From: a virus
Strand: one strand, 5' to 3'
IMG/VR virus record: IMGVR_UViG_3300046463_000833
Coordinates: 1 to 39,307 of that record
Length of the DNA: 39,307 nt
Under the pieces are notes generated by a model. It did not search any database. It was not told where the DNA came from and worked only from the letters and a program-made list of their open reading frames with translations. This document shows positions 4,073-29,903 of this stretch, in pieces. Made by a program: the position numbers and the translations under genes. The first letter of the stretch is position 1, and the number at the start of each line of letters is the position of its first letter.

Positions 4073-5944
4073 TCAACCCACCGTGACCGTGATTGGCGGC
4101 GGCTTGACGGGCGCACCTGGGGCGACAAATCCTGGCATGCCCTGCAGCCCGCCCTGTGCCAGACCACTGATCGGCATCCCTGGCGAGCCTGGCGTTGGGT
4201 ACAGGTTCATGCCACCCATGTTCGCGCCTCCCTGCGCTAGACCTCCGTAGGTCGTCCGCTGCTGCACCGGCGGTGCCGGCTGCGTCTGCTGCGTGGCCGT
4301 CGTCACCGGCGCCGTCAGACCACCATTTTGTGCGCTCTGTTGCGCGGCGTTGGTCGCCGCGACCGCGGGATGCGGTGAGCCCGTCACCTGGTGGTACTTG
4401 TCGAGCATCTGCTGCAGCACGCCCACCGCAGTCTGGGTCGCGGGATCGGCCATGTTGCTCTGCGGATCGGCCATCTGCACCATGCGCGCGGCCGAATCCA
4501 GGGTGCTCTGGCCACCCATCATGTCTGCCGTCCAGCCACCGATGCCGCCCACGAGCTGCTCGCCCAACCCGGCGGGCGCCGACATCAGATTCTTGGCGCC
4601 CGTCGCCTGGCCCAGGATGTTCTGCAGCATCCCGCTCGCCGTCGCTGCCCGCTGCTGCAGCAGACCCGCGCCCGTCTGGGCATTGCCGCGGGTGTTCGAC
4701 AGGATGTCGCCCGCGGCCGTCGTCACGTTCTGCTGCTGGGCCGTCTCCGCGTTGGTCTGCGCCGTGTCGGCCGTCATCCGCTGGTTGGCCGCGTCGATCA
4801 GCGTCTTGGCCTCGTCGACCGTGATCTTCTTGTCGACCACCTGGCCAGTCAGATGCGCCGCCAACTGCTGCAGCGCGGCGCTCGCGGTGACCTGACCCTT
4901 GTTCTCGATCCAGATCAGTTGCGACGGGTTGTTCGGATCGGGCACCTGGATCATCGGCGCCACGGTGTTCGGGGTCGGCGCGGTGACCGGCGCCTTCCCG
5001 TAGTTCGGGTTGGGCGTGCGGCTGACCTCGTTGCCCTGGTCGTCGTACCAGACCAGGTCTTTGAGGGTGGTGCTGTTGCCCACCGTCGCCGCGTCTTTCA
5101 CGTTCTCCGGTAAGGTCAGCCCGCCCGTCTTGGGATCGAACACGTACACCTTGCCACCGACCGAGACGGCCTGCTTGTTGACGTCGCCCTGGGCGACCTC
5201 CTGGGTGTTGATGACCTTGCCGGTGGCCTTGTCGAGCGTGTAGATCGCCGTCGACGTCGCCACGATCTGCGTCCCGTCCGGCGCCGCCGACACCGCGTGC
5301 AGCTCGCTGTTGACCGGGTCCCACTGCCCGACCACCCCGCTGCTGGCATCGCCCGGCGTGCGGTACACCGGCGTCCACTTGCCAGGGTCCGACGTCTTCG
5401 CGCCGCCCTGCGCCGACACGCTGGCGCCGACCTTGTTGTTGGCCGGGTCCCACAGACCGATGACGCGCGGGTTGTCGCTCTTATCGTTCGGGTCAGTGAT
5501 CGGCGTCCACGTCGACGGGTCGGTCTTGACGTTGGGGTCGACCTTGAACGGCTGCGTCCCTGGCGGCGCCTTGGGGTCGCGTACGTAGACCGTCGGCGTG
5601 CTCGAGCCTGGCGGGATGACGTTCAGGTTCTCGTCTAACCGCTCAAGCCCGCTGGCCGGGGTGGACGTCTTCGACGGCGCCTTGGTCGGCCCCTGGATGA
5701 CGTCGAACCCCGTACCACCCTTCGTGGCCGGGTTGTTGCCGATCTCTTTGACGACGATCGAGTCGGGCTCACCGTCCGGCCCCTCGATCGACAGGGTGAT
5801 GCCCGCTTGTTGGTCGATCTGCGCCGGCTCACCAGCCAGACCAGCCCGAGGATTGGCGACCTTGACGCTATACGGCGCCTCGCCGACCACTTTGGACCCA
5901 GGTCGCAGCGCGTCGACGACCGCTTGTTTCGAGTTGTAGGGCAT
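4073..5944 (-). CDS. Internal virion protein, beta-repeat N-terminus and helical C-terminus
   Basis: A 623-residue protein whose ATG overlaps the giant gene's stop by one base. Residues 120-300 contain repeated short strands around WTP, GLWDP and GQWDP motifs (PSTWTPITDP, GKWTPVYRTP), suggesting a beta-propeller or beta-repeat region. Residues 355-560 are Ala/Gln/Thr-rich helices (AETAQQQNVTTAAGDILS). The end is Gly/Pro-rich. Encoded between the giant virion protein and another Gln-rich protein, it probably belongs to the ejected or internal core proteins. No catalytic motif seen. Propeller assignment is a visual inference. Confidence 0.72.
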   Translation of the reverse strand: MPYNSKQAVVDALRPGSKVVGEAPYSVKVANPRAGLAGEPAQIDQQAGITLSIEGPDGEPDSIVVKEIGNNPATKGGTGFDVIQGPTKAPSKTSTPASGLERLDENLNVIPPGSSTPTVYVRDPKAPPGTQPFKVDPNVKTDPSTWTPITDPNDKSDNPRVIGLWDPANNKVGASVSAQGGAKTSDPGKWTPVYRTPGDASSGVVGQWDPVNSELHAVSAAPDGTQIVATSTAIYTLDKATGKVINTQEVAQGDVNKQAVSVGGKVYVFDPKTGGLTLPENVKDAATVGNSTTLKDLVWYDDQGNEVSRTPNPNYGKAPVTAPTPNTVAPMIQVPDPNNPSQLIWIENKGQVTASAALQQLAAHLTGQVVDKKITVDEAKTLIDAANQRMTADTAQTNAETAQQQNVTTAAGDILSNTRGNAQTGAGLLQQRAATASGMLQNILGQATGAKNLMSAPAGLGEQLVGGIGGWTADMMGGQSTLDSAARMVQMADPQSNMADPATQTAVGVLQQMLDKYHQVTGSPHPAVAATNAAQQSAQNGGLTAPVTTATQQTQPAPPVQQRTTYGGLAQGGANMGGMNLYPTPGSPGMPISGLAQGGLQGMPGFVAPGAPVKPPPITVTVG

Positions 5945-8900
5945 CAGGCTGCGTCCTCTCCTGCCACGGTGTATGGCGTCGGCACGGTACGACGGACCGC
6001 GCGTCCGCCCGCGGTGGTGGACTGCAAGTCAGCCCGCGACAACGTCCGCGTAAACAGCACGTCGCTGTTCTGCGACGCGTTGCTGATCGCCTTCGACAAC
6101 AACTGGTTCCGTACGCTGATGTCGCCGTCCTTATACAGCGATGAACCCATCACCGCGGCCACCTGCTGGCGGATGATCTCGCCGCGCGACCGCTGCAGCT
6201 GGTCCTGCTCCTCTGGCGTCAGATCGACCGACCAGCCATTGCCCACGTTGACCGCCTTGGGCGCCGGCGGAATCCGGACATCGTTGTCGCGCAAGGCTTT
6301 CAGCGTGGGCTCGTCGCGCAGGATGTCGGCCCGGACCGGCAAAGCGAACGCCGCGACGCCAGAGATGCCCTGCGATCGTGGCTCGCCAATCGCCGTCAGC
6401 GACTCGGGCACGTTGCCGCTCAGGCCCGGATAGTTCGACTCCATCGCTTCGACCAGCCCCATGAAGCCATCGTGCGGGTTGCGGCTGGCCACCCCGTAGG
6501 CCCGCTGAATCTGGCGGCCCATCGCCGAATACGGACCGTAGCTCGAGGCCAGACTCTCGAGGATCTTGTTGATGTACCGGTTGGGGTCGTGCAGCACGTT
6601 GACCGTGTCGGACAGTCCCTGCAGGAACGTGTTGTCGAGCACGTACTGGCCGATGCTGGCAGCCGCACGACCGGCCTCATTCCCATCCAGCAGACTGTGC
6701 CCGCGTTTGCCAGCGTCGGTGACGATGGCGGCCATCGCCAGTGGCGCGCCGGCGGCGCCGAAGTTCTGCAATGGCACGTAGTAGGTGTTGCCACTGATCG
6801 GGTCCTGGGTGACCATCGACCACTCGCGCCAGCCCTGCGGGTACGTACTGGCTTCGTTGGGGTCGTACGCGCCGGTCAGCATGCTCTTGCCGCCACTGAA
6901 CGCGCCCGCGCCCATCCCGACGCCCATGCCAAAGATGGCCGTGCCCAGCGCCGTGCGCGCCAATCGCTGCTCCGCCAGCAGGGTGGCCCGCCCAAGTTGG
7001 GCTGACGTTGCGCCGCCGGCAGTCTCCAATGCCCCACGGGCGCGCACGGCCGCGACCGTGCCGGCCAGTCCCAGCGGTGACAGACCCCCACCCTGGGCCG
7101 TGATATTCGCTGGCGTCTTGATGAATGGCACGAACTGCGACGAAACATCCCTCACCGCACCGCGCGGCGACGGTATCCAGTCGCGGTGTTCCTGAAACAC
7201 CATGCGCTGCATCGCATCGTGCGCTTCCTTGTAGAGCTCGGGGTACTCCTCGAGATTCTTGACGATGTTCGCCGTGCGTCCCTTGAGCTGCTCGCCGCGG
7301 AACCCCTCGCGGACCGCGTAGCGGGTAGCCACACGGTTGGCCTGCATGGCGAACGCGCCACCCTTGAACACCTGGTCCTCGGCCTGCAGCAAACGCAGCG
7401 GCATCTCCACGGCCGCGTCGAGTTTGCCCGAGCCCGACGCCAGCCCAGGGCGCATGTTCTTGAGATTGACCAGATCGTCAGACGAGATGCCGGTCTGCAG
7501 GATCTTGAGGGCGTCGGGCATGCTGGACAGAAAGCCTGGCCCGTACGCCTCGAGCATCGGCCCGAGCTCGGCCATGTACGCCTGACGCTCGCCACCGGTG
7601 GCCGCCGCGCGCGCCCAATCGATGCCCACCACCATGCCGTGCGTGGCGACCTCGAGCGGCACCTGGGTGATGTTGCCAACCATGTTGGCCATGTGCGTCA
7701 CCGTCGCGCTGAGGAGACCCGCGATACGCACAACCTGCGACCGCCCCCACCAGCCCTGTTTCAGCAAGCCCTTGACGAACTTACCCGCGGCTAACGGATC
7801 ATCGGACGTGATCGCCTTGACGTAGCTGGCCAGCAATTCTCTGGACGGCTTCTGGCCACCGACCGCCTCGAGCACGCTGCTGGCCCGTTGCGACTGCAGC
7901 GTCTGACGTTTCGACTCGAGGTCGAACGCCCGCTTCGCGTCAGCCTCGGCCGACTTCGCGGCCAGGTCCGCTGACTTGCGGTACTGCTCGATGTACAGGC
8001 CCCCGCGGAACGCGTTGCGTTTCTCAGCGGCGATCTCGTTGGCCTTGCTATCCCAGAACGCCATGTTCTCCCAGGTGTCTTTACGGTTGGCGAAGTTCTT
8101 ACGCTCGGCCGCGAGCTCAGCCTGCAAGGCACTCAGCAATTCCTGGGGTGGCTCCCGTACCGCTGCCTGACGTTTTGCCGCGGCCGCATCGCGCGCGGCC
8201 TTCAGGGCGTTGAAGTCGTCCGCCTTCTCGTGCAGCGTCATCGCGTTGTAGCGATCGAGTTGGTCGTACGCGGCCGCGATCTGATCGAGGATGTTCTTCT
8301 GGGCGCCGTTCGACCGCGCTGTGGCGACCGCGGTCTTCTGCTCGACGTCCATCTCGCGCGTCTTCTCGAGAAGCTGCGTTGCTCGAGCCGTGGCCCGCTT
8401 GGCCTGGGCAGCAATGCGCTGGGCACCGATGCGCTCGTTGCTGGCGTTGATGCCCCTGGCCATTGTGGCGTCCAATCGGTTCTTCAGCGACTCCAGCGTG
8501 CGGCCCGCGGTGCTGCGCCCACCTCGGGCCACCGTCAGCAACTGGGTGTTCTTGGAGAGCTCGTTGAGCCCATACGCGACCTGCTCGTCCGACAGCGCAT
8601 CCACCCCACCCCTGGCCACGATGTCCCTGGCCATCTTCTCGGACCGTGCCTGGGCATCGATGGCCGCGGCCTGCAAGGCCACCATCTCCTGCGGATTGAA
8701 CCCCTTGCCGACGGGCGTCTTGAGCCACTCCTCGCGCGTCATGCCTACCTTGGTCGCCAGGTCATTGACCAGCGAGTCGTGGGAAATCCTGCCCTGGGTG
8801 TACGCGTCGAACAGCTCGGGGTTGTCCTCGGCCGCGCGCTGGATCTGCGCCCTCACCTCGGGCATGGCGCCCTTCAGCATCGCATCCAGGTTCGGCATCC

Positions 8901-11900
8901 GCTTCAGGGTCGCTTCACTGGGTGGCCCTGGCCGTGCGCCCTCGGCGTTGATGTCGCTGATGCCCGTGCCGGTGATGCCGCCCTTGGTGCCGACGACCTC
9001 GCCGGGCGCCTCGCGCAGCCCGTCGCCGCTCAGCGGGTCGCCGTAACTCTTACGGCCGTTCTGGGTGACGATGTCTTCCGCCAGCGACCCAGCACCCGAG
9101 CTCGCCTGCTCGGTGGCGTACGGACCATGCGGCGCGTTCTCTTCACCACCCGCGAACGGCAGGTCTGCCGCACGCTGACCGCGGCGTGCGAACTGGGCGT
9201 CGTCCGGCGCATTCGCCTGCTGCTCGCCGGCGGCCTCGATGTGGCGCTGGTCGAGCGCCAGCGTGTTGCGTTCCGCGCGCAATTCGGTCGGCGTGGGCTC
9301 GCGCGTGCCGGTGCCGCGGATACCCGACTGGCCGACGTCCAGACGCACCTCGCCTGACCCGGTGTCCAGCCCCGCCTTCTCCCACCACAACGGGTCGTAC
9401 GCACTCTGGCCGTGCTGCTGGGCGATCTCGACCAGGTTGTCGTTGGTGTAGCCCGCACCCCACGGCGGCCGCTCCGGCTTCTGCGTAGGATTACGCAACT
9501 GCTCGTCGATGGCGGCCAGCCGATCCTGATTGGCCTGGTAGCGTTGCTCGAGCTCGTCACCGTGAGCGAGGCGCTCGTCCATCGTCATCGGCGTCTCGCC
9601 GGGACCAGCCGCATCCAACAGATGCGGGTTGGTGACGACCTCACCGATGTTCCGCGGCGTACCCGACTCGACACCGCGTACGGTCTGGCGGGTCGGCTCC
9701 TCGCTGGGTGGCGGCCGCTCTTCGGTGGTAGCTCTGAGAATGTTGTCGCCGGGGCGTGGACCCCTATCTGCTGCCCGCGCGAGCTGTTCCTCGAGGGTCG
9801 GGCGCGTCTCTGGTGCGCGGAAGCCCGCTTCGCCCTCACGGCCGACACCCGCGACGGCGCGTTCCAAGAGTGGACCGGCACCGCCGCGGGTGATCAGATG
9901 CGTACCGAGCAACCCCGCGGTTGCGCCGAGCCCGATGTTTCTCAGGCGCTCCTCAGGTGACGCGTCCTGGGGTGTTGCCAGGTTACCGGCGTACCCGCCG
10001 GCGACCCCTCCAGCGAGGTTTACACCGAAGGGGACTGGGGCCTGGGCTCGCTCTCGGGTGCCTCGAAGCCTACCCCTGGTGGGAGTGGCGGCGCCGCCTC
10101 CGGGTGGGGCCGCAGAGCCGGTGCTTTCGACGGCTCCTGCTTCGGAAGGACCACCTTTGGCCCGCTCGAGTAGACTGCGTCGCTCGGCGGTAGTCGGCTC
10201 GAACCGACTCCCAGTTGATCCAAGAGTTCGTGCATAGTCTGCGGCCTGGAGGCGCTCATTGGTCCCGTTGTACCTATCTAACGTCGCGGGATCGACGCCC
10301 GCATTCTTGAGAGATTCTACCACACGAGGCGCCGATTCAAGGTCATACAGGGGTATCTGCAGCGACCCTCCAGTGGGGCCTCTGACCGTCGGGTGGCCGT
10401 CCGCGGCCAGCGCCGCCTGCACCCGATCCAGCGTCGCCCGGTCAGCCACCAGGCTCAATCCCGCGGCGTCCGGCGCCCGATAGTCGGGATAGTGAATCGC
10501 CATCTCCGGCGCCTTCAGCGCGTCGCCGATGGTCGCCGCCACGTACCGTGCGGTGTCGCTGTTGCCCGACGGCAGATGCACGACGTAGTTCCCTGGCGTC
10601 TCTTCGACCACGCGGTGCGCGGTTGCCAGCCACGGCATCACCCCACGCTCGTCCACCCCTAATCGATCGAGCACCCCGCCGGGCACGCCGCGCACAACCG
10701 GAGCGTTGCTCTCTTGCAGCGCACGCTGCTCGTTACGGAATTCGTGCGTCGCGGGTCGGAGCGTGCCCGACGCTTTCCTGGTGTCACCCAGAAAGGCACG
10801 CTGCACCGAAGGGATGCCGAGCTCTGGCGGGAGGGGATCGTGCAGGTACGGCGCGTACTGCGCTAACGCGGCCTTGACCGAGGGTTGCTGCATCGCCCGC
10901 GAGATCTCACCTGGCTCGGGCGCACTAACTTTACCGATCGGACGGTCGAAGACGCCCGCGGCTTTGGCATCGCGGATGGCGCCCTGGAAGTCGCCCGCCT
11001 TCCACTTGGCGTACGCCTCAGGGGCACCCTCAGACATCGCGCGAATGCCATCCCACACCGACGACTGGAACGCAAACCCGTCGACACCCTGCTCCGCGCC
11101 GAGCTCGTTGAACACCGCCTCGACCCCGCGGTACAGGTTCTTGTTGTTGGCCGCGGCAGACTCATGCGGCGAGTCCATGTACGTCTTGCCGCCGCGCACC
11201 GCTGGAGTCTGGCTAGTGTCGATGTTCATCGTGCGCCAGTTCCATATGTCGTTGGTGATCGCCGGGTCGTACAGCCGCGCTTCGGCAGAACCGTAATTGC
11301 CCGCGAACGACGGCGTCTTCGGTCCACCCGTATCGGCAATGCCGGTCGCATAGCCACGATTCATGGCGATGCGCTTGTTCGGTCCCGCGGGACCACCGTA
11401 CGTGTAGTCGTTGACCGCCTTCAGGATGCTGGCCTTGATCTCAGGCGGCGACAGTCCTGCCTGACGACCTTCCTGCGCGATCTGCCGCACCATGCCGAAG
11501 ACCTTCGCCGCCTCCGACACCTGGCCGGTGACGTTGGTCTGCATGCTGCTGATGGCGTTCAGCGCGAACCACTCCTCGAGGTTGTGCGCGCCGACGGTCG
11601 GGATGCCCTGGTCTGCCTGGTCGTAGTAGAAGTCGCGCTTGTTAGGGTTGGCCTCGTACAGCGCGCGCAGGTCGTCTGTATTCGGCATGCCGCCCGGCGC
11701 CAGTTTGACCAACCCGTTCGCCGAGCTCTTGGCGACGTTCCTGTCAAGCGGCAGCACGTCCTGCGGCAGCGTGTTCAGATCGAGATGCAGCAATCCATCC
11801 GGTGATGCCTCGCGCAACGGTCGCGCGATGGCCTCGAACCGACCTTCTGGCGTATCCGCGGGATAGTTCGGTAATCGCTGGCGACCGACCGCCGTCGACG

Positions 11901-14607
11901 GTGGCAGCGGTGCAGCTTCAGTTGCGGGCGCCGTCGGCGCGACCGGGGTCGCTTCGCCTCGAGCCCGCGCGGCCAATTCCGGCACGCCGCCCAGCGCGTT
12001 GTTGACGGTGGTCTGGGCGGGTAGCCTCGAGGAGCGCAAGGCCTCGGTGATCTGTGGCGCGTTGTCGAGCAGCACCTGGCCCAGACGGCGTACGACCTGT
12101 GCAACGCCGGCCGCGCCCACGTCGATCACGCCGCCCAATCCAGCACCGACGACCAGCGCCTGGCCGACCGACTCGGGCGTGCTCTCCTTCTTCTCGGCTT
12201 CGAACATCGCGTTCTGCAGCCCGCCGACGATGGCGCCCTGCGAAAACTTCTGGGCGATCGTGCCGAGCACGGATACCGCGGCGGGCGACAGACGTTCCGC
12301 CAGTTGCGGTCCGACGATCCGGCTGACCGCGCCACTGAGTGCGCCCGTGCCCGCTTCAGCCACACCGCTGGTCGGTCCCAGTAACGCCAGCATCAGCGGG
12401 TCGGTGAACTGCTGGGCAATGCCCGTGGTCAGCCCCGCGATCAACCCGCCGGGCGTGATGTCGCCCTCGTGGCCTGGTTCTGGCGTGGCGCCGGGCAGAT
12501 TGTTGAGCGGGTTGTTCTGCTGCAGCCAATCGTTCTTGACCTGCATGACGTCGCGGTACAGGCTCATCGTGCCCGCGGGGATCAATGACGGACCCTCCTG
12601 GGCATTCTCCGCGGCGGCCTGTAGCAACCGCTGACCCACCGGCGACCGCGCGAACGCCTCCGCCTGGGTCCCGAGATCGCTGGCCGCGGCGCCAAGCACG
12701 GGAACGGTAGCGTCTACCGCGCCACGAGTCGTGGTGCCCAGGTCGCTCGCTGCGGCCCCCAGAACGGGCGCTACCGCATTGACGGCCGATGTGCCAGGCG
12801 TCAACCGGTTGACGTCCTGTGCTGCACCCAGCACGCCCTGCGCGGCTTGCTGCACGTCGCTGGCCACCTGATTGACCTGGTCGCGTGCCGACACCTGACC
12901 GGGCTGGAGCTGCACGGGCGCGGTGGCCTGAGCCAATGCGCCCTGCGCGGCCGAGCCCAGTGCCGATGCCGCACCACCAACCGCCTCGCCGACGGCGCCG
13001 GCAGCGCCGCCCAGCACGTCCGCGGCGGACTGGATGGGCGTTGGTCCCTGGTCGGCAGCCACGTTGCCGTTGGCGTCCTGCATCGCACCCTTGACGTACA
13101 GCGGCGCCTTCACGGGGGCCGGGCCACCGATCGTGATCGGGGCGTTGGCTGCGCCACCGGTGCCGCCCAATGCCGTGGGTGACGTGCTCGAGGCAGGCAC
13201 GGCGGGATTGTCGGCGAACAATGCGCCCTGCGCGCGGCCCATCAGATTTTCCATCTGGGCCGGCGTCATCCACTCGCTGCCGCTCTTCAGGTCCAGACCC
13301 GACCGTCCCACGTGGAACGCGCCCGTCTGCGGGTTGTACCCGTCGGCAAAGAAGTAGTGGCCGGGCGTGCTGATCGTCACCGGGTTGCCGGTGGTCGCTT
13401 CTTTGGCGATCGCGTCCCAATCGGGCGCCACGATGTGCGTGTCGACGCCCATGTTCTTGAGCAGACGCTGTTCGCTGGTGATGCCAGCCATGCCGCCGCC
13501 ACTCGTCCAGCCCACCTGCTTGGCCAGGTCGGTAGCTTCTCTGAGGGTCGGGTTACGGCCGAACCGTTCGGCGAACCTGACGGCGGCCGCGGGACCGCAC
13601 GCGGCGTACGCCTCGTCGGCCGTCAACTGCGGGTCGCCGAACTGAGACTGGTTCATCGCCGTCGACGCCGTGTCCAGCGCACCTCGAGCGGCGCCGAGTA
13701 CCTGCTGACCAGCGCCCTGTACGGCGTTGACGGCACCCTGAGCGGCGGGGGGCAGATGGTCGTAGATCGACTTCACCTGATCGACCCAGCCCTGCGCGGG
13801 ATAGCCCGGCTCGTCGACCACGTAGCCAGCGTTTCTCAAGTCGTCGACGAACTTGGCCGCATTGCCACGATCGGCCCACGCCTGGGCGTACCGCGGCGCG
13901 GTCTGCACCAGGTTGATGAACGCGTCGAACGACTCCTGCGGGCTCTTGTAGCTGGCCCACCTCGAGCCGTTGCTGCCGTCACCCTGCAGGCTGAACAGGT
14001 TGTTCTGCTGCTGGGCGTTGGACGACTGGCCCCAGCCCGTCTCGTTGGCCGCAATGGCCAGCATGGCGTTGGGATCGATACCCGTGGCCGCCGCGGCACG
14101 CTGCGCCATGCCCTGCAGGCTGGTGATGAACGCCGACTGGCCCTGACCAACGGTCGCGAGTCCCGTGTCTGACGGTGGCGGACCACCCAGCGATGGCGTG
14201 GTGGTCGCTGGTGGTGCTGGCGGTGGTTGGGTGGCCAGACTCTGGACGGCGTCCTGCGCGCCCTGGGTGAGACTGTTGACGTGTTGCTGTAACTGCTGGC
14301 CAACATCGCTGGTCAGGTTGGACGCGTGCTGTTGCAGCTGCTGCAGCACGTCGCCAGCGGACTGTTGCGCCCCACCGAGCACCTGGACGGCAGGTTGCGC
14401 GGCCGCCACGGCCTGCTGGGCGTGCTGCTGGAGCTCCTGCAGGATCTGATTCGGGTCAGGACCCTGGGGTACCGGCGGGGGCGTGGGGATGGCGTCGTTG
14501 ATGCTCTGGACGGCGCCCTGGCCGAGTTGCAGCAAGCCCTGAGCGTGGGAGCGCAGCTCGTCACCGATGCTCGAGCGCAGGTCGTCGAGGAGGATGGTGC
14601 CAGGCAT
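5944..14607 (-). CDS. Giant multidomain virion/ejection protein (2,887 residues) with glycosidase and C39-like domains
   Basis: This single gene takes 22% of the genome. Residues 1-130 are Gln-rich helices. Residues about 155-285 look like a glucosaminidase/lysozyme-like domain: IDPNAMLAIAANETGWGQ gives a likely catalytic Glu189, followed by NNLFSLQG and a YKSPQESFDAF segment. Residues about 325-465 resemble a C39-like papain-fold peptidase, with Cys337 in AYAACGPAA and His417 in TPGHYFFADGY. Residues about 870-1500 hold unassigned globular regions. Long charged helices follow (about 1900-2250). The C-terminal 500 residues include FVPFIKTPANI and small-residue hydrophobic stretches (FGMGVGMGAGAF) like the late domains of ejected or polyvalent phage proteins. 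It probably opens peptidoglycan and helps bring DNA across the envelope. Domain limits are estimates. Confidence 0.85.
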   Translation of the reverse strand: MPGTILLDDLRSSIGDELRSHAQGLLQLGQGAVQSINDAIPTPPPVPQGPDPNQILQELQQHAQQAVAAAQPAVQVLGGAQQSAGDVLQQLQQHASNLTSDVGQQLQQHVNSLTQGAQDAVQSLATQPPPAPPATTTPSLGGPPPSDTGLATVGQGQSAFITSLQGMAQRAAAATGIDPNAMLAIAANETGWGQSSNAQQQNNLFSLQGDGSNGSRWASYKSPQESFDAFINLVQTAPRYAQAWADRGNAAKFVDDLRNAGYVVDEPGYPAQGWVDQVKSIYDHLPPAAQGAVNAVQGAGQQVLGAARGALDTASTAMNQSQFGDPQLTADEAYAACGPAAAVRFAERFGRNPTLREATDLAKQVGWTSGGGMAGITSEQRLLKNMGVDTHIVAPDWDAIAKEATTGNPVTISTPGHYFFADGYNPQTGAFHVGRSGLDLKSGSEWMTPAQMENLMGRAQGALFADNPAVPASSTSPTALGGTGGAANAPITIGGPAPVKAPLYVKGAMQDANGNVAADQGPTPIQSAADVLGGAAGAVGEAVGGAASALGSAAQGALAQATAPVQLQPGQVSARDQVNQVASDVQQAAQGVLGAAQDVNRLTPGTSAVNAVAPVLGAAASDLGTTTRGAVDATVPVLGAAASDLGTQAEAFARSPVGQRLLQAAAENAQEGPSLIPAGTMSLYRDVMQVKNDWLQQNNPLNNLPGATPEPGHEGDITPGGLIAGLTTGIAQQFTDPLMLALLGPTSGVAEAGTGALSGAVSRIVGPQLAERLSPAAVSVLGTIAQKFSQGAIVGGLQNAMFEAEKKESTPESVGQALVVGAGLGGVIDVGAAGVAQVVRRLGQVLLDNAPQITEALRSSRLPAQTTVNNALGGVPELAARARGEATPVAPTAPATEAAPLPPSTAVGRQRLPNYPADTPEGRFEAIARPLREASPDGLLHLDLNTLPQDVLPLDRNVAKSSANGLVKLAPGGMPNTDDLRALYEANPNKRDFYYDQADQGIPTVGAHNLEEWFALNAISSMQTNVTGQVSEAAKVFGMVRQIAQEGRQAGLSPPEIKASILKAVNDYTYGGPAGPNKRIAMNRGYATGIADTGGPKTPSFAGNYGSAEARLYDPAITNDIWNWRTMNIDTSQTPAVRGGKTYMDSPHESAAANNKNLYRGVEAVFNELGAEQGVDGFAFQSSVWDGIRAMSEGAPEAYAKWKAGDFQGAIRDAKAAGVFDRPIGKVSAPEPGEISRAMQQPSVKAALAQYAPYLHDPLPPELGIPSVQRAFLGDTRKASGTLRPATHEFRNEQRALQESNAPVVRGVPGGVLDRLGVDERGVMPWLATAHRVVEETPGNYVVHLPSGNSDTARYVAATIGDALKAPEMAIHYPDYRAPDAAGLSLVADRATLDRVQAALAADGHPTVRGPTGGSLQIPLYDLESAPRVVESLKNAGVDPATLDRYNGTNERLQAADYARTLGSTGSRFEPTTAERRSLLERAKGGPSEAGAVESTGSAAPPGGGAATPTRGRLRGTRERAQAPVPFGVNLAGGVAGGYAGNLATPQDASPEERLRNIGLGATAGLLGTHLITRGGAGPLLERAVAGVGREGEAGFRAPETRPTLEEQLARAADRGPRPGDNILRATTEERPPPSEEPTRQTVRGVESGTPRNIGEVVTNPHLLDAAGPGETPMTMDERLAHGDELEQRYQANQDRLAAIDEQLRNPTQKPERPPWGAGYTNDNLVEIAQQHGQSAYDPLWWEKAGLDTGSGEVRLDVGQSGIRGTGTREPTPTELRAERNTLALDQRHIEAAGEQQANAPDDAQFARRGQRAADLPFAGGEENAPHGPYATEQASSGAGSLAEDIVTQNGRKSYGDPLSGDGLREAPGEVVGTKGGITGTGISDINAEGARPGPPSEATLKRMPNLDAMLKGAMPEVRAQIQRAAEDNPELFDAYTQGRISHDSLVNDLATKVGMTREEWLKTPVGKGFNPQEMVALQAAAIDAQARSEKMARDIVARGGVDALSDEQVAYGLNELSKNTQLLTVARGGRSTAGRTLESLKNRLDATMARGINASNERIGAQRIAAQAKRATARATQLLEKTREMDVEQKTAVATARSNGAQKNILDQIAAAYDQLDRYNAMTLHEKADDFNALKAARDAAAAKRQAAVREPPQELLSALQAELAAERKNFANRKDTWENMAFWDSKANEIAAEKRNAFRGGLYIEQYRKSADLAAKSAEADAKRAFDLESKRQTLQSQRASSVLEAVGGQKPSRELLASYVKAITSDDPLAAGKFVKGLLKQGWWGRSQVVRIAGLLSATVTHMANMVGNITQVPLEVATHGMVVGIDWARAAATGGERQAYMAELGPMLEAYGPGFLSSMPDALKILQTGISSDDLVNLKNMRPGLASGSGKLDAAVEMPLRLLQAEDQVFKGGAFAMQANRVATRYAVREGFRGEQLKGRTANIVKNLEEYPELYKEAHDAMQRMVFQEHRDWIPSPRGAVRDVSSQFVPFIKTPANITAQGGGLSPLGLAGTVAAVRARGALETAGGATSAQLGRATLLAEQRLARTALGTAIFGMGVGMGAGAFSGGKSMLTGAYDPNEASTYPQGWREWSMVTQDPISGNTYYVPLQNFGAAGAPLAMAAIVTDAGKRGHSLLDGNEAGRAAASIGQYVLDNTFLQGLSDTVNVLHDPNRYINKILESLASSYGPYSAMGRQIQRAYGVASRNPHDGFMGLVEAMESNYPGLSGNVPESLTAIGEPRSQGISGVAAFALPVRADILRDEPTLKALRDNDVRIPPAPKAVNVGNGWSVDLTPEEQDQLQRSRGEIIRQQVAAVMGSSLYKDGDISVRNQLLSKAISNASQNSDVLFTRTLSRADLQSTTAGGRAVRRTVPTPYTVAGEDAA

Positions 14608-20627: not shown

Positions 20628-20859
20628 GGTCGGCCTTGTCAAGGGCAGAGATGGCGTCGGCAATAGCACGATAGTGCGAACCGAACTTGAAACCCGGCGC
20701 CATCAGCGCCCGCGCGGCCTGGATGACGGTGTCCTGTGAGGCGATGTGTTGCTCGAGCAGATGATTGATGGATTCTTGCAGGGTGATGTGGGTTTTTGCG
20801 TTGGCGAGCTCGTGGCGAAGCTGCTCGAGCTCTTCGAGCAGGACCACGGTATTGGTCAC
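20614..20859 (-). CDS. Small coiled-coil protein
   Basis: About 81 residues from a GTG whose GTGA overlaps the methyltransferase stop. A GTG two codons earlier is also in frame. Residues 7-50 form a heptad-like helix (NTVVLLEELEQLRHELANAK), and the end is a short amphipathic helix (SHYRAIADAISALDKADHAS). No family recognised. It lies between the methyltransferase and the terminase genes, co-oriented and translationally coupled. Confidence 0.68.
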   Translation of the reverse strand: MTNTVVLLEELEQLRHELANAKTHITLQESINHLLEQHIASQDTVIQAARALMAPGFKFGSHYRAIADAISALDKADHASS

Positions 20860-21716
20860 GTCCACGCCTGGTCGGCCCTTACGTGGCCGTTGTTCATGCT
20901 TAGCGTCGAGGCGACCACCAACGTGCCGTTGACCGGGTCTGTATGACCGCGAGATTCCGTACCGCCGCGCATCGTCGCGGCGATCATCGGGAGCTCGACG
21001 CTAGCCCCTCGAGCGCCGCCATCAGCCTCGGCGGCAACTCCTTGCCCCGTTTCGCGGCCCGTCTGAGGATGCCCGCCGCAGCTTTCGCAGACAGCCAGTA
21101 CCGCCGCGGCACGGGCGCTGTCTGCAAGACAGCCGACAATGAAGACGCGGCGCCTTCTCTGGGGGACTCCGAAGTGGCGCGCGTCCAGAACCCGCCAGGC
21201 CACGCCATACCCGAGGTCGACCAGCCCCCGGAGTACGACACCGAAGTCGGCGCCCGGTTCTCCTCCGCTGGAAAGGAGTCCGGGAACATTCTCAATGAGG
21301 CACCATCGTGGCCGCAGTTCTCGCAGCACGCGGTGGAACTCATGCCAGAGACCGCTGCGATCGCCGGAAAGACCACGCCGTTGACCGGCCACGCTGACGT
21401 CCTGGCATGGGAATCCGCCGTAGACGAGGTCAATATCGCCGCATAGCCCTGACCGGGTTGGTTGCCGCCTGTGCTGTGCGTCATCAGCCCGTGGGCGTCC
21501 TTCGTCAGCCACGCCTCGCCGTTGCCCTTCACGATCAGCCCCATCGGCTCGACCGACTTTGCGAACGTCGTCAATGCGCTGCACCTCCGGCCAGTGCCGC
21601 GCGAGCACCGACAGACACCAGGGATCGTTTTCCACCTGCAGCACCGTCTCGATGCCAGCCCACTGCAGCCCTTGCTCGAAACCGCCGACACCCGAGAACA
21701 GCGACACGGCCCTCAT
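20856..21716 (-). CDS. C5-cytosine DNA methyltransferase, truncated and rearranged
   Basis: Would transfer methyl from AdoMet to cytosine C5. Motif I is LFSGVGGFEQGLQ, motif IV GGFPCQDVSVAG with the catalytic Cys, motif VI ENVPGLL, and motif VIII RVLDARHFGVPQRRRRVFIVG. Motifs IX and X are missing: the protein ends after ASTLSMNNGHVRADQ, 286 residues against over 350 usual. Between the DDV of motif III and motif IV lies an extra block of about 38 residues. In this frame it is Arg/Asp-rich with poor third-position GC, but in the next frame it gives a plausible methyltransferase-like stretch. The gene therefore looks scrambled and may be inactive. ATGA start overlap with the upstream gene. Confidence 0.85.
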   Translation of the reverse strand: MRAVSLFSGVGGFEQGLQWAGIETVLQVENDPWCLSVLARHWPEVQRIDDVRKVGRADGADREGQRRGVADEGRPRADDAQHRRQPTRSGLCGDIDLVYGGFPCQDVSVAGQRRGLSGDRSGLWHEFHRVLRELRPRWCLIENVPGLLSSGGEPGADFGVVLRGLVDLGYGVAWRVLDARHFGVPQRRRRVFIVGCLADSARAAAVLAVCESCGGHPQTGRETGQGVAAEADGGARGASVELPMIAATMRGGTESRGHTDPVNGTLVVASTLSMNNGHVRADQAWT

Positions 21717-27451: not shown

Positions 27452-27762
27452 GCCTGTGCGTCCTCGCGGGCGACAAGCAGAGCCCCCAGGCGACCGTTGA
27501 GCTTGCCTGAGAAACTGTCGAGCTCGAACGCCAGCGACGTGTCGTACTGCTGCAACAGCGCCCGCACGGCGTAGATGCGCGCTCGGGCTTCCTGTACCAC
27601 CAGGATGGCCTTGTCGCGGTCCGACGCGGCCTGCAGGCTCCAGGGGCGATCGGTCACCAACCCTGACGAGATCGTTACGTCACTGGTTGACCGGATTGGT
27701 TGCGCGCCGGCACCGTTTCGGTATGATGTGGGGGCAACTGCGGAATCGAGTGGGGCGTCCAA
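27448..27762 (-). CDS. Small protein in early leader, TTG start
   Basis: About 104 residues. I choose the TTG at 27762 because AGAGGAAG lies five bases upstream. Longer ORF starts run through a strong hairpin (27787-27815) and are less likely. The protein has a disordered Ser/Thr-rich N-terminus and a helical end (SDRDKAILVVQEARARIYAV; LAFELDSFSGKLNGRLGAL). Its start and ribosome site lie opposite a candidate small RNA on the + strand. Function unknown. Confidence 0.65.
   Translation of the reverse strand: MDAPLDSAVAPTSYRNGAGAQPIRSTSDVTISSGLVTDRPWSLQAASDRDKAILVVQEARARIYAVRALLQQYDTSLAFELDSFSGKLNGRLGALLVAREDAQA
27700..27727 (+). promoter_or_regulatory. Rightward promoter for candidate antisense RNA
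   Basis: TTGCGC (27700-27705), 16-base spacer, TATGAT (27722-27727). The same -35 sequence occurs in both switch promoters near 28.1 kb. No rightward ORF follows; a terminator lies 60 bases on. Confidence 0.6.
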
Positions 27763-27820
27763 GGTTCTTCCTCTTTCGTAGTTGTTGAAAGGACTCCGTA
27801 GGGCGGGGTCCTTTCTTTTT
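27734..27820 (+). ncRNA. Candidate antisense small RNA, about 87 nt
   Basis: A rightward transcript from the promoter above would end at the intrinsic terminator 27787-27820. Its middle is the exact complement of the TTG start and AGAGGAAG ribosome site of the leftward gene at 27762, so it could block that gene's translation, like small immunity or antisense RNAs of other phages. The start point is predicted from the -10 position only. Confidence 0.55.
27787..27820 (+). terminator. Intrinsic terminator, rightward
   Basis: GAAAGGACTCCG pairs with CGGGGTCCTTTC (one G-T pair) around loop TAGGG, followed by five T. A textbook rho-independent terminator on the + strand. In leftward transcripts the same bases form a hairpin in the leader but no T run follows. 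Confidence 0.82.
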
Positions 27821-27863
27821 GTCTCGTACGCAACCTGGATAGGGCCAGGCCGCAATCAGTGGT

Positions 27864-28052
27864 TCAGGCGGCAGCCTCGGGCTGAGGTATCTCAGGGGGT
27901 CGGAGTCGCTCCGCATCGCGGCGGTGGATGCGCCAGACGCCGCCTGGGGTTTGAAAACCAGGCAGGACGCCCCGTTTGAGCCAGCCGCGAACGGTGCTCG
28001 GGGCGACATTGAGCAGGGGCGCAACCTCGTTGGGCGTCAGCAGATCGGACAC
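27864..28052 (-). CDS. Small MerR/excisionase-like HTH protein
   Basis: A 62-residue protein from a GTG four bases after AAGG, first gene of the leftward operon. Residues 5-50 form a helix-turn-helix with wing: LLTPNEVAPLLNVAPSTVRG, WLKRGVLPGFQTPGGVWRIH, RRDAERL, as in excisionases and helix_turn_helix_17 proteins. Position opposite the XRE repressor suggests a Cro- or Xis-like role in the lysis-lysogeny decision. Not proven. Confidence 0.78.
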   Translation of the reverse strand: MSDLLTPNEVAPLLNVAPSTVRGWLKRGVLPGFQTPGGVWRIHRRDAERLRPPEIPQPEAAA

Positions 28053-28100
28053 TGGGCCTTCCCTATGCTATCTCTCACAACGCGTGGGGTCACGTTCGGT

Positions 28101-28117
28101 ATGATAGTCTCTATCAT
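28101..28117. promoter_or_regulatory. Operator-like palindrome
   Basis: ATGATAG-TCT-CTATCAT has perfect seven-base arms and covers the -10 of the leftward promoter. It is the best candidate binding site for the XRE repressor. A neighbouring 18-base period (GCGCAAGT at 28124 and 28142, weaker at 28160) may be secondary sites. Confidence 0.6.
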
Positions 28118-28129
28118 TCGCTCGCGCAA
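28101..28129 (-). promoter_or_regulatory. Leftward early promoter
   Basis: On the - strand, TTGCGC (28129-28124), 17-base spacer, TATCAT (28106-28101). It should drive the whole leftward early operon from the HTH gene at 28052. The -10 overlaps the palindrome at 28101-28117. Confidence 0.65.
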
Positions 28130-28139
28130 GTTACTCACA

Positions 28140-28168
28140 TTGCGCAAGTCAGACAGTTTGCGTACACT
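28140..28168 (+). promoter_or_regulatory. Rightward repressor promoter
   Basis: TTGCGC (28140-28145), 17-base spacer, TACACT (28163-28168). It would start transcription about seven bases before the repressor ATG at 28182, giving a leaderless or nearly leaderless mRNA. It is back to back with the leftward promoter. Confidence 0.62.
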
Positions 28169-28181
28169 GGTCTGGCTGGCA

Positions 28182-28730
28182 ATGGCTGACCAGGACGCAT
28201 CGTTCTCCGACGCGATCGAACGTCTCAGGCACGAACGCGGTCTGACGCCCGCTCAACTGGCCCGCGCACTCGGCGAGTACGAAGGCAACGTCTCCCGCTG
28301 GCGCCGCGGCAAGGGCATCGACCAGCTCAACGTGTGGAAGCTCGCCGACTTCTTCGGCGTCGAGCGCGCCTATCTCGAACGCCTGGCCGGCTACGACAAC
28401 ACCGCGCGCAATCGCGCCAGAGAGCGCTCAGAGCTCAACGCCGAGGAGCTCGCGATCCAGGCGACGACGGCCGAAATGGCCGACATCCTGCACGGGCTCC
28501 CACGCGTCTACTGGGGCACGATCATCAAAGCTTTCACGCGCGGCATCGACGGCGCCCGAGATATGGCCCACCTCTTAGCTGAGCTCGACTCTGCCGAACG
28601 CACAGTTAGGACCCTCGACGATACCGATGTTAGGAACCCGCAAACTACTCCTAACAGGCTCCTAAAAAACGTTGACGATGAGATAACGGGGTCTTATCGG
28701 TCCGTCAGCCCCGTGCTAGTAGCCACCTAG
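28182..28730 (+). CDS. XRE-family phage repressor
   Basis: A 182-residue protein. Residues 8-68 are an XRE HTH (FSDAIERLRHERGLTPAQLA, ALGEYEGNVSRWRRGKGI, NVWKLADFFGVERAYLERLA). The rest is helical (ELNAEELAIQATTAEMADIL) with a Thr-rich tail. There is no LexA-type Ser/Lys peptidase, so any induction would need another mechanism. Divergent from the leftward operon and in front of the integrase, it is the likely lysogeny repressor. No Shine-Dalgarno is seen; the mRNA is probably leaderless. ATG at 28182 chosen because it begins the HTH. Confidence 0.84.
   Translation: MADQDASFSDAIERLRHERGLTPAQLARALGEYEGNVSRWRRGKGIDQLNVWKLADFFGVERAYLERLAGYDNTARNRARERSELNAEELAIQATTAEMADILHGLPRVYWGTIIKAFTRGIDGARDMAHLLAELDSAERTVRTLDDTDVRNPQTTPNRLLKNVDDEITGSYRSVSPVLVAT
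28605..28665. repeat. TTAGGA repeats before integrase (arm-type site candidates)
   Basis: GTTAGGA occurs at 28605 and 28629, and its inverse TCCTAAC at 28649 and TCCTAA at 28660. The middle pair forms an inverted repeat. They lie inside the end of the repressor gene, about 200 bp before the integrase start, and could be integrase or excisionase arm sites of attP. No core site is recognisable. Confidence 0.4.
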
Positions 28731-28818
28731 TTGGCCCTTGACTCGTCTGTGACGCCTAACCGCCGACCCGCCTCACGTCCGCCTCTTGCGCATCGCCCAG
28801 ACCGCCACACCCTTCCTG

Positions 28819-28836
28819 CTAGAACAATCGTTCTAG
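28819..28836. promoter_or_regulatory. Palindrome before integrase ribosome site
   Basis: CTAGAAC-AATC-GTTCTAG has seven-base perfect arms and ends 11 bases before the integrase GGAGG. It may be an operator, or a hairpin in the mRNA controlling integrase translation. Confidence 0.5.
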
Positions 28837-28859
28837 AGACTCCCTGGGGAGGGAAGGCC

Positions 28860-29903
28860 GTGAAAAACCTGGGCGATGCCATTGCCTACCATCAACTCGT
28901 CGTCGCATCTGAGGGTCGCACGGTAGCGACCCAGCGCCAGTACCTGTACTTCGAGTGCGTGTTTCTGCGTTATCTCGAAGCCCGCGGAATCGCGGCCACC
29001 CTCGACGCGCTGACGTCGCCGAACGTCCGCCAGGCGTTGCTGTGGTACCAGAGCCACAGCGATCGGCGACGCAGTCGTGGCGGTGAGGTCGCCGGCATGG
29101 TCTTCGTCGACATCATGCGCCTGTTCTCACGCTTCCTCGAGCGCGAAGGCATCCTGCCAGACGATCCGCTGCACGCCGTGCGGCGGGTCAAGATCGCCCA
29201 ACGTCTGCGCCAACCCTTCACCCAGACCGAGGTCATCGCGCTGTGGGGCGCGTGTCGCTCATCCCAGATGCCCGCACGTGACGAGGCGTTATTCCTGCTG
29301 CTGCTCGATACGGGCATGCGCATCGGCGAGGCCTGCACCATCACGCTCGATCACGTCCGTCTCGACCAGCGCCTGATCGTGGTCGGCGCCGAGGCCAAGG
29401 GCCGACGCGAGCGGCTGGTGCCCATCGGTGTCGACGCGCGGCGAGACGGCGGCCGCACCGCACGCGCCCTGCGGCGCTATCTGGGCGAGCGGCCCGCATC
29501 AGACCGATCGGGACAACGGCTATTCCTGGGGCGCGATGGCTATCCACTCGAAGCACCTGGTGGCAGCCAGGTCATTGAGCGCCTGGGAAAACTCGCTGGC
29601 GTGGCTGACGCCGGCCCGCATCGACTGCGCCACACGTTCGCCACCTGGTACCTGGTCACCTATCCCGGCGACGAGCTCGGCCTGCGGCGCATCATCGGCC
29701 ATCTGAGCAAGGACGTGGTGAGCTCGTATGTCCACTTCGCACAATCCTTGATCGCCGAACGCGCCGGCCACGCGTCTCTCGCCGAGCAGTGGCTGAGCCT
29801 CGACACACACGCTGAGCCTGCACCAGCCCTGTATGACGGGCCAGGGAACGTACGGGCCTTCCACTGCACCCAGTGTGCGCGCCGTGCGGCGCACAGCCAC
29901 TAG
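28860..29903 (+). CDS. int: Tyrosine integrase
   Basis: A 347-residue site-specific recombinase from a GTG seven bases after GGAGG (a TTG directly after the repressor stop is less likely). The N-terminal SAM-like domain reads YHQLVVASEGRTVATQRQYL. The catalytic domain has the first Arg in TGMRIGEA, Lys region VGAEAKGRRERLVPI, the HRLRHTFA box, then IIGHLSKDVVSSYVHFAQ with His and the nucleophilic Tyr. The end has a Cys-rich tail (FHCTQCARRAAHSH). It should integrate the phage at an attB. Follows the repressor as in many temperate phages. Confidence 0.9.
   Translation: MKNLGDAIAYHQLVVASEGRTVATQRQYLYFECVFLRYLEARGIAATLDALTSPNVRQALLWYQSHSDRRRSRGGEVAGMVFVDIMRLFSRFLEREGILPDDPLHAVRRVKIAQRLRQPFTQTEVIALWGACRSSQMPARDEALFLLLLDTGMRIGEACTITLDHVRLDQRLIVVGAEAKGRRERLVPIGVDARRDGGRTARALRRYLGERPASDRSGQRLFLGRDGYPLEAPGGSQVIERLGKLAGVADAGPHRLRHTFATWYLVTYPGDELGLRRIIGHLSKDVVSSYVHFAQSLIAERAGHASLAEQWLSLDTHAEPAPALYDGPGNVRAFHCTQCARRAAHSH

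Follow-up and report, generated by a model that had tools for sequence, protein, structure and literature searches.

The window, a stretch of 39,307 bases (65% G+C) from an IMG/VR virus record, most likely encodes a short untranslated cis-antisense RNA that blocks the first cistron after a cro/xis-like gene and that is probably constitutive. An antisense small RNA over the start of this early gene had been proposed in an initial annotation of the sequence, and the proposal is now supported by a conserved terminator, a covarying 5' hairpin, an apical loop complementary to the start codon (the anti-start loop) and a polarity of the structure towards the antisense strand. As expected of a cis-antisense RNA, a promoter-like site and a terminator lie on the + strand, the predicted transcript between them is fully complementary to the - strand gene over its start, and RNA structure is conserved on the antisense strand.

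The window carries a temperate module in which a rightward HTH regulator and a tyrosine integrase stand against a leftward early operon (Table 1). The operon reads, in order, the HTH_17 gene, the gene starting at 27762 (the target), a Gam/Gp157-like gene, RusA, RecT and primase. A blastn comparison with the INPHARED phages gave no near relative of the window phage, and a scan of GTDB species with the target protein gave no host match. The integrase matches in the genome scan, the best of which lie in Chloroflexi/Dehalococcoidia MAGs, are only ~30% identical, which is too weak for a host to be named. Within the switch region (28095-28170) TTGCGC serves as the -35 in both directions. The same region holds a perfect TTGCGCAA palindrome at 28140, the one perfect site in the window, which is a candidate repressor operator; relatives with other repressors differ here. 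Elsewhere, a single leftward ORF of 2887 codons (5944-14607), very large for a 39-kb phage, probably encodes a multi-domain virion protein and contains a glucosaminidase-like stretch recognized by eye, and the ORF at 20856-21716 has, also by eye, the C5-cytosine DNA methyltransferase motifs FSGVGGFEQGL and PCQDVS.

Table 1. Features of the antisense module and the neighbouring switch (positions in the window)
Feature	Position	Strand	Remarks
Dyad TGACGTAACGATCTCGTCA	27664-27682	-	Upstream of antisense promoter, centre ~-61 from inferred antisense start
Antisense promoter	27700-27727	+	-35 TTGCGC 27700-27705, 16-nt spacer, -10 TATGAT 27722-27727; from sequence
Predicted antisense RNA, ~87 nt	27734-27822	+	Two hairpins; 5' end ~27734 inferred from promoter
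5' hairpin (52 nt)	27734-27785	+	Covariation, strand polarity, anti-start CAA
Intrinsic terminator	27787-27820	+	Stem 27787-27815 and U tract
Target gene, 104 codons	27448-27762	-	TTG start 27760-27762; first cistron after cro/xis-like gene
Shine-Dalgarno region of target (AGAGGAAG)	27767-27774	-	Read from sequence
HTH_17 excisionase/regulator-like gene (cro/xis-like)	27864-28052	-	Precedes target in leftward operon
Leftward switch promoter TTGCGC-17-TATCAT	28101-28129	-	Would make target mRNA
HTH regulator	28182-28727	+ (rightward)	
Tyrosine integrase	28731-29900	+ (rightward)	

The rightward promoter claimed in the initial annotation, TTGCGC-16-TATGAT, can be read directly in the sequence at 27700-27727, and the ~87-nt RNA predicted to start from it folds into two hairpins at -42.3 kcal/mol (z about -5; no shuffle is that low). 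The 7-nt apical loop of the 5' hairpin, GUCCAAG (27757-27763), is fully complementary to CUUGGAC, the start region with the UUG codon of the leftward gene. The sequence thus confirms that the RNA is complementary to both the start codon and the ribosome site of the gene at 27762, as had been claimed. A loop complementary to a start codon or ribosome site is a usual design where antisense pairing is loop-initiated. No conserved ORF lies within the RNA, in keeping with the earlier remark that promoter and terminator have no ORF between them. At the 5' end of the predicted RNA of one relative (L007:5040-5110), a 15-nt in-frame insertion gives a small third hairpin (GCCGCCUCUGGCGG).

The terminator, described beforehand as a textbook one, consists of a stem of 13 pairs with a loop of 3 (-20.1 kcal/mol) followed by TTTTTGTC, ends before the stop of the HTH_17 gene, and ranks first in strength among the window's 16 terminator candidates listed by the tool. 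Because the window's total of such candidates is not above that of shuffled sequences, it is the quality and position of this terminator that count and not the number. The hairpin is conserved among relatives, its stem being kept either through compensation [GGAC/GTCC in the window, GGGT/ACCC in L005, GAGC/GCTC in L006] or by full replacement (L042, L094, L106). The replaced stems do not align structurally in MAFFT. In L007, L009 and L095 the U tract is poor, and there the terminator hairpin is without strand polarity too.

Relatives were retrieved via the target protein, DNA patterns and the integrase, the near ones being drawn from a limited set of metagenomes. Both hairpins and the anti-start loop persist in related phages: the two-hairpin fold is predicted in 11 of 11 distinct relatives (antisense z -2.7 to -6.6), and in every one of them CAA, the complement of TTG, lies inside the apical loop or at its edge. 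The 5' stem changes on both sides, from GCAACUGCGGAA/UUUCGUAGUUGU in the window to CACUGACGAAA/UUUCGUUGGUG in L007 and L009. Across nine distinct sequences of the 5' hairpin 90% of cells pair, and double-changed cells number 12, against 4.2 +/- 1.6 after shuffling (0/500 as high); the covariation score is 0.404, whereas with slid partners it does not exceed 0.148. Counted by pairs, the double changes are unexceptional taken alone, at 5 as against 3.5 in shuffles. The module stays in place while the upstream regulator gene and the downstream gene differ between relatives. Thus, the gene ahead of it is Cro-like in L004, another in L005 and others again in L007 and L009, and in L042 the module and the leader codons are kept with an unrelated gene downstream.

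The antisense promoter has 8 of 12 consensus matches, which is below the tool's 9-of-12 threshold. Sites of the form TTGnnn-16/17/18-(5/6 of TATAAT) occur only twice on the two strands of the 39 kb, at the antisense promoter and at the leftward switch promoter (28129), with a mean of 0.45 (sd 0.69, maximum 3) in shuffled sequence; as the pattern was chosen after the site had been seen, its rarity supports the promoter and does not decide. The window, L003-L007, L009 and L042 share TTGCG(C/T)-16-TATGAT without change, while the promoter reads ATGCGC-17-TATTCT in L119, has a -10 of TACGAT with TTGC at a spacing of 19 in L095/L106, and has a -10 of TATGCT with no clear -35 in L094/L096. The -10 box lies ~6 nt ahead of the first stem base in nearly all relatives, the exception being L007 with its insertion. 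Since the promoter is inside coding sequence, protein constraint could explain part of its conservation. The promoter codons (TCA TAC ... CAA CC) are the same in seven sequences, whereas the codons around them differ, in some cases synonymously, so that in this small sample part of the constraint probably acts at the level of the DNA.

The -35 was also said to be the one used by the two switch promoters. Within the window the boxes are indeed identical, but TTGCG(C/T) is also retained by relatives whose switch promoters are quite different, and the shared -35 is therefore no evidence of common control. A shared repressor operator, TTGCGCAA, behind the TTGCGC box was considered and rejected, because relatives with other switches retain the box; one-mismatch sites in the window are no commoner than chance.

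A rightward terminator just ahead of the switch would serve to stop stray rightward transcription from entering it, and the unrecognizable antisense -35 in L094/L096 would suit a hairpin that is a mere insulator, with no dedicated antisense RNA. This is nevertheless unlikely, in that it leaves unexplained the covariation of the 5' hairpin, the anti-start loop in all near relatives and the fixed distance between the -10 and the stem.

A stem conserved on one strand is partly conserved on the other, and the sense strand also folds better than its shuffles (z -1.5 to -6), as would be expected if the antisense fold were the mirror image of a hairpin that the mRNA forms at its start codon, either to attenuate translation or as a site of processing. 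We consider such a sense-strand role very unlikely. Without exception among the relatives, the 5' hairpin is less stable on the sense strand (-6 to -13 kcal/mol, against -13 to -21 kcal/mol on the antisense strand) because its 3-7 G-U pairs turn into A-C mismatches, and the U tract is on the antisense side. This strand polarity fits selection acting on the structure of the antisense RNA and not on that of the mRNA.

An activator or a repressor could bind at the dyad that precedes the antisense promoter, and in L009, L042, L095 and L106 the same dyad is a perfect 8-bp inverted repeat, TGACGTAA-CGA-TTACGTCA. The lambda OOP RNA was once proposed to act in DNA replication, and by the same token a short transcript could activate or prime replication near an origin, with this conserved dyad, ~60 bp upstream of the start, as the binding site; such a role is highly improbable, for an unsystematic look revealed no origin features and the anti-start loop is not predicted by it. 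A small RNA that acts in trans, or a small peptide, is a similarly improbable product, since the cis target is conserved and the one short frame that overlaps the RNA in the window and in L004 (ending LFRSC) was rejected as a peptide: its ATG falls within the -10 box and thus ahead of the transcript, and in L009 the frame is broken.

The target of the predicted antisense RNA retains its leftward TTG start and a GAGG/AAGG ribosome site in all near relatives. Its protein has no match in Pfam or PHROGs, and in the AlphaFold model residues 1-37 are of low confidence, as for disorder, the remainder being a two-helix hairpin. Codons 1-37 correspond to a leader part that in the window is fused to the next gene; in L009, L042, L095, L106 and L119 the TTG ORF is separate, with 38-62 codons (~38-40 in the first four) and a stop that overlaps the next start, an arrangement that would allow translational coupling of the leader ORF to the gene behind it. 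A recombination boundary is visible at L042:2187-2300, where the leader ORF is retained and a coiled-coil-like ORF, joined by an ATGA overlap, replaces the gene behind. That the leader is kept while the gene behind is swapped indicates that the leader is the constant target and the protein behind it exchangeable.

As reconstructed from the sequence, RNA polymerase would initiate at ~27734 and stop at 27815-27820. The apical loop would present the complement of the start codon, with the rest of the 5' hairpin covering the ribosome site, so as to touch the nascent leftward mRNA first and then allow a duplex to form. This duplex would block initiation at the TTG codon and, by analogy, would probably be exposed to RNase III. 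The blocked ORF comes first after the cro/xis-like gene and in several relatives is no more than a leader overlapping the next start, so that the block would pass downstream, reaching the following genes through translational coupling or polarity. The promoter has no conserved link to any repressor operator, and the RNA is therefore probably made constitutively. It may thus act as a threshold, whereby leaky leftward transcripts are silenced in the lysogen and the RNA is overrun once the leftward promoter fires.

The layout extends to phages whose integrases are 43% (L119), 38% (L121), 35% (L124) and 35% (L126) identical to that of the window. In each, after a cro-like gene (with one extra small ORF in between in L121), a terminator on the opposite strand lies 16-22 nt away from a gene start, and the hairpin before the terminator carries the complement of that start in its loop. 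Layout and locus match even in L121, L124 and L126, whose RNAs do not align to that of the window. All four loci pass automatic criteria which, when run on 527 kb of strand sequence, gave 8 passing sites, 5 of them at the switch-adjacent module locus; as the criteria were set after these loci had been viewed, this result estimates background and is no blind test. The automatic search missed L112, L117 and L128, of which L117 is the same contig as L007, a near relative whose U tract is poor, and the other two resemble the layout by eye only. No candidate module was found among integrase relatives below ~33% identity, and a search with the pattern GTTGACCGGANNGGNTGCGC gave no modules besides those already known and L119/L268. 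Chance accounts for most of the 78 matches to a ribosome-site pattern.

Several known antisense systems resemble the predicted RNA in part. In Salmonella phage P22 the sar promoter lies inside the target gene, the terminator is in the gap before the target, and the RNA has a hairpin structure. By pairing with the ant mRNA, the sar RNA, of 68/69 nt, interferes with the initiation of translation (PMC12197685, PMC13397905). The RNA predicted here likewise lies over its target's start and ribosome site. However, the sar target is the antirepressor Ant, whereas the target here matches nothing in Pfam or PHROGs and is exchanged between relatives, and neither the window phage nor its relatives are P22-like. 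The window has no match at the gathering threshold in Rfam 15, which may hold no sar model. The best reading is that the predicted RNA works most like P22 sar without being one. Lambda OOP RNA, of 77 nt, runs antisense to an early gene that adjoins the switch (PMC12197685, PMC5869508). It is similar in being a compact, antisense, switch-adjacent promoter-terminator unit of comparable length, but OOP overlaps the 3' end of cII, acts via RNase III and favours lysis, whereas the RNA here overlaps the 5' end of a gene without a regulator domain and thus does not belong with OOP.

The c4 RNA is processed from the same transcript as its target, the antirepressor gene ant. In P1 and P7 it exerts antisense control of a phage gene via loop sequences (PMC12197685). 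Unlike c4, the RNA predicted here has its own promoter on the opposite strand. There is also a likeness to a plasmid system. In the CopA/CopT/tap system of plasmid R1, as with similar copy-number antisense RNAs, the loop of a hairpin antisense RNA contacts the target, and the RNA blocks a leader ORF to which the next gene is translationally coupled. The leader-ORF target is similar here, but the R1 system controls plasmid replication and is no phage switch. The Rfam family ctRNA_p42d scores 18 bits (E 0.61) with the terminator hairpin only, as against a gathering threshold of 50 bits.

The best-known cases of antisense control in phage switches come from a handful of enterobacterial phages. 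The comparative evidence of covariation, strand polarity, anti-start loop and module exchange supports such control, from sequence alone, in an uncultivated phage group that has no close relatives among sequenced isolates. It is conceivable, though we put this forward with some doubt, that in a sizeable group of uncultivated temperate phages an antisense RNA at a fixed position gates the early operon behind the cro/xis-like gene, with the layout kept despite exchange of the RNA sequence, the upstream regulator and the target ORF alike, the target often being a leader ORF coupled to the next gene, and differing loops giving rise to RNA-level immunity or incompatibility groups. The layout suggests a simple search rule, namely an opposite-strand terminator 15-30 nt before the first post-cro gene, preceded by a hairpin whose loop contains the start codon's complement, by which such RNAs could be found in other temperate phages.
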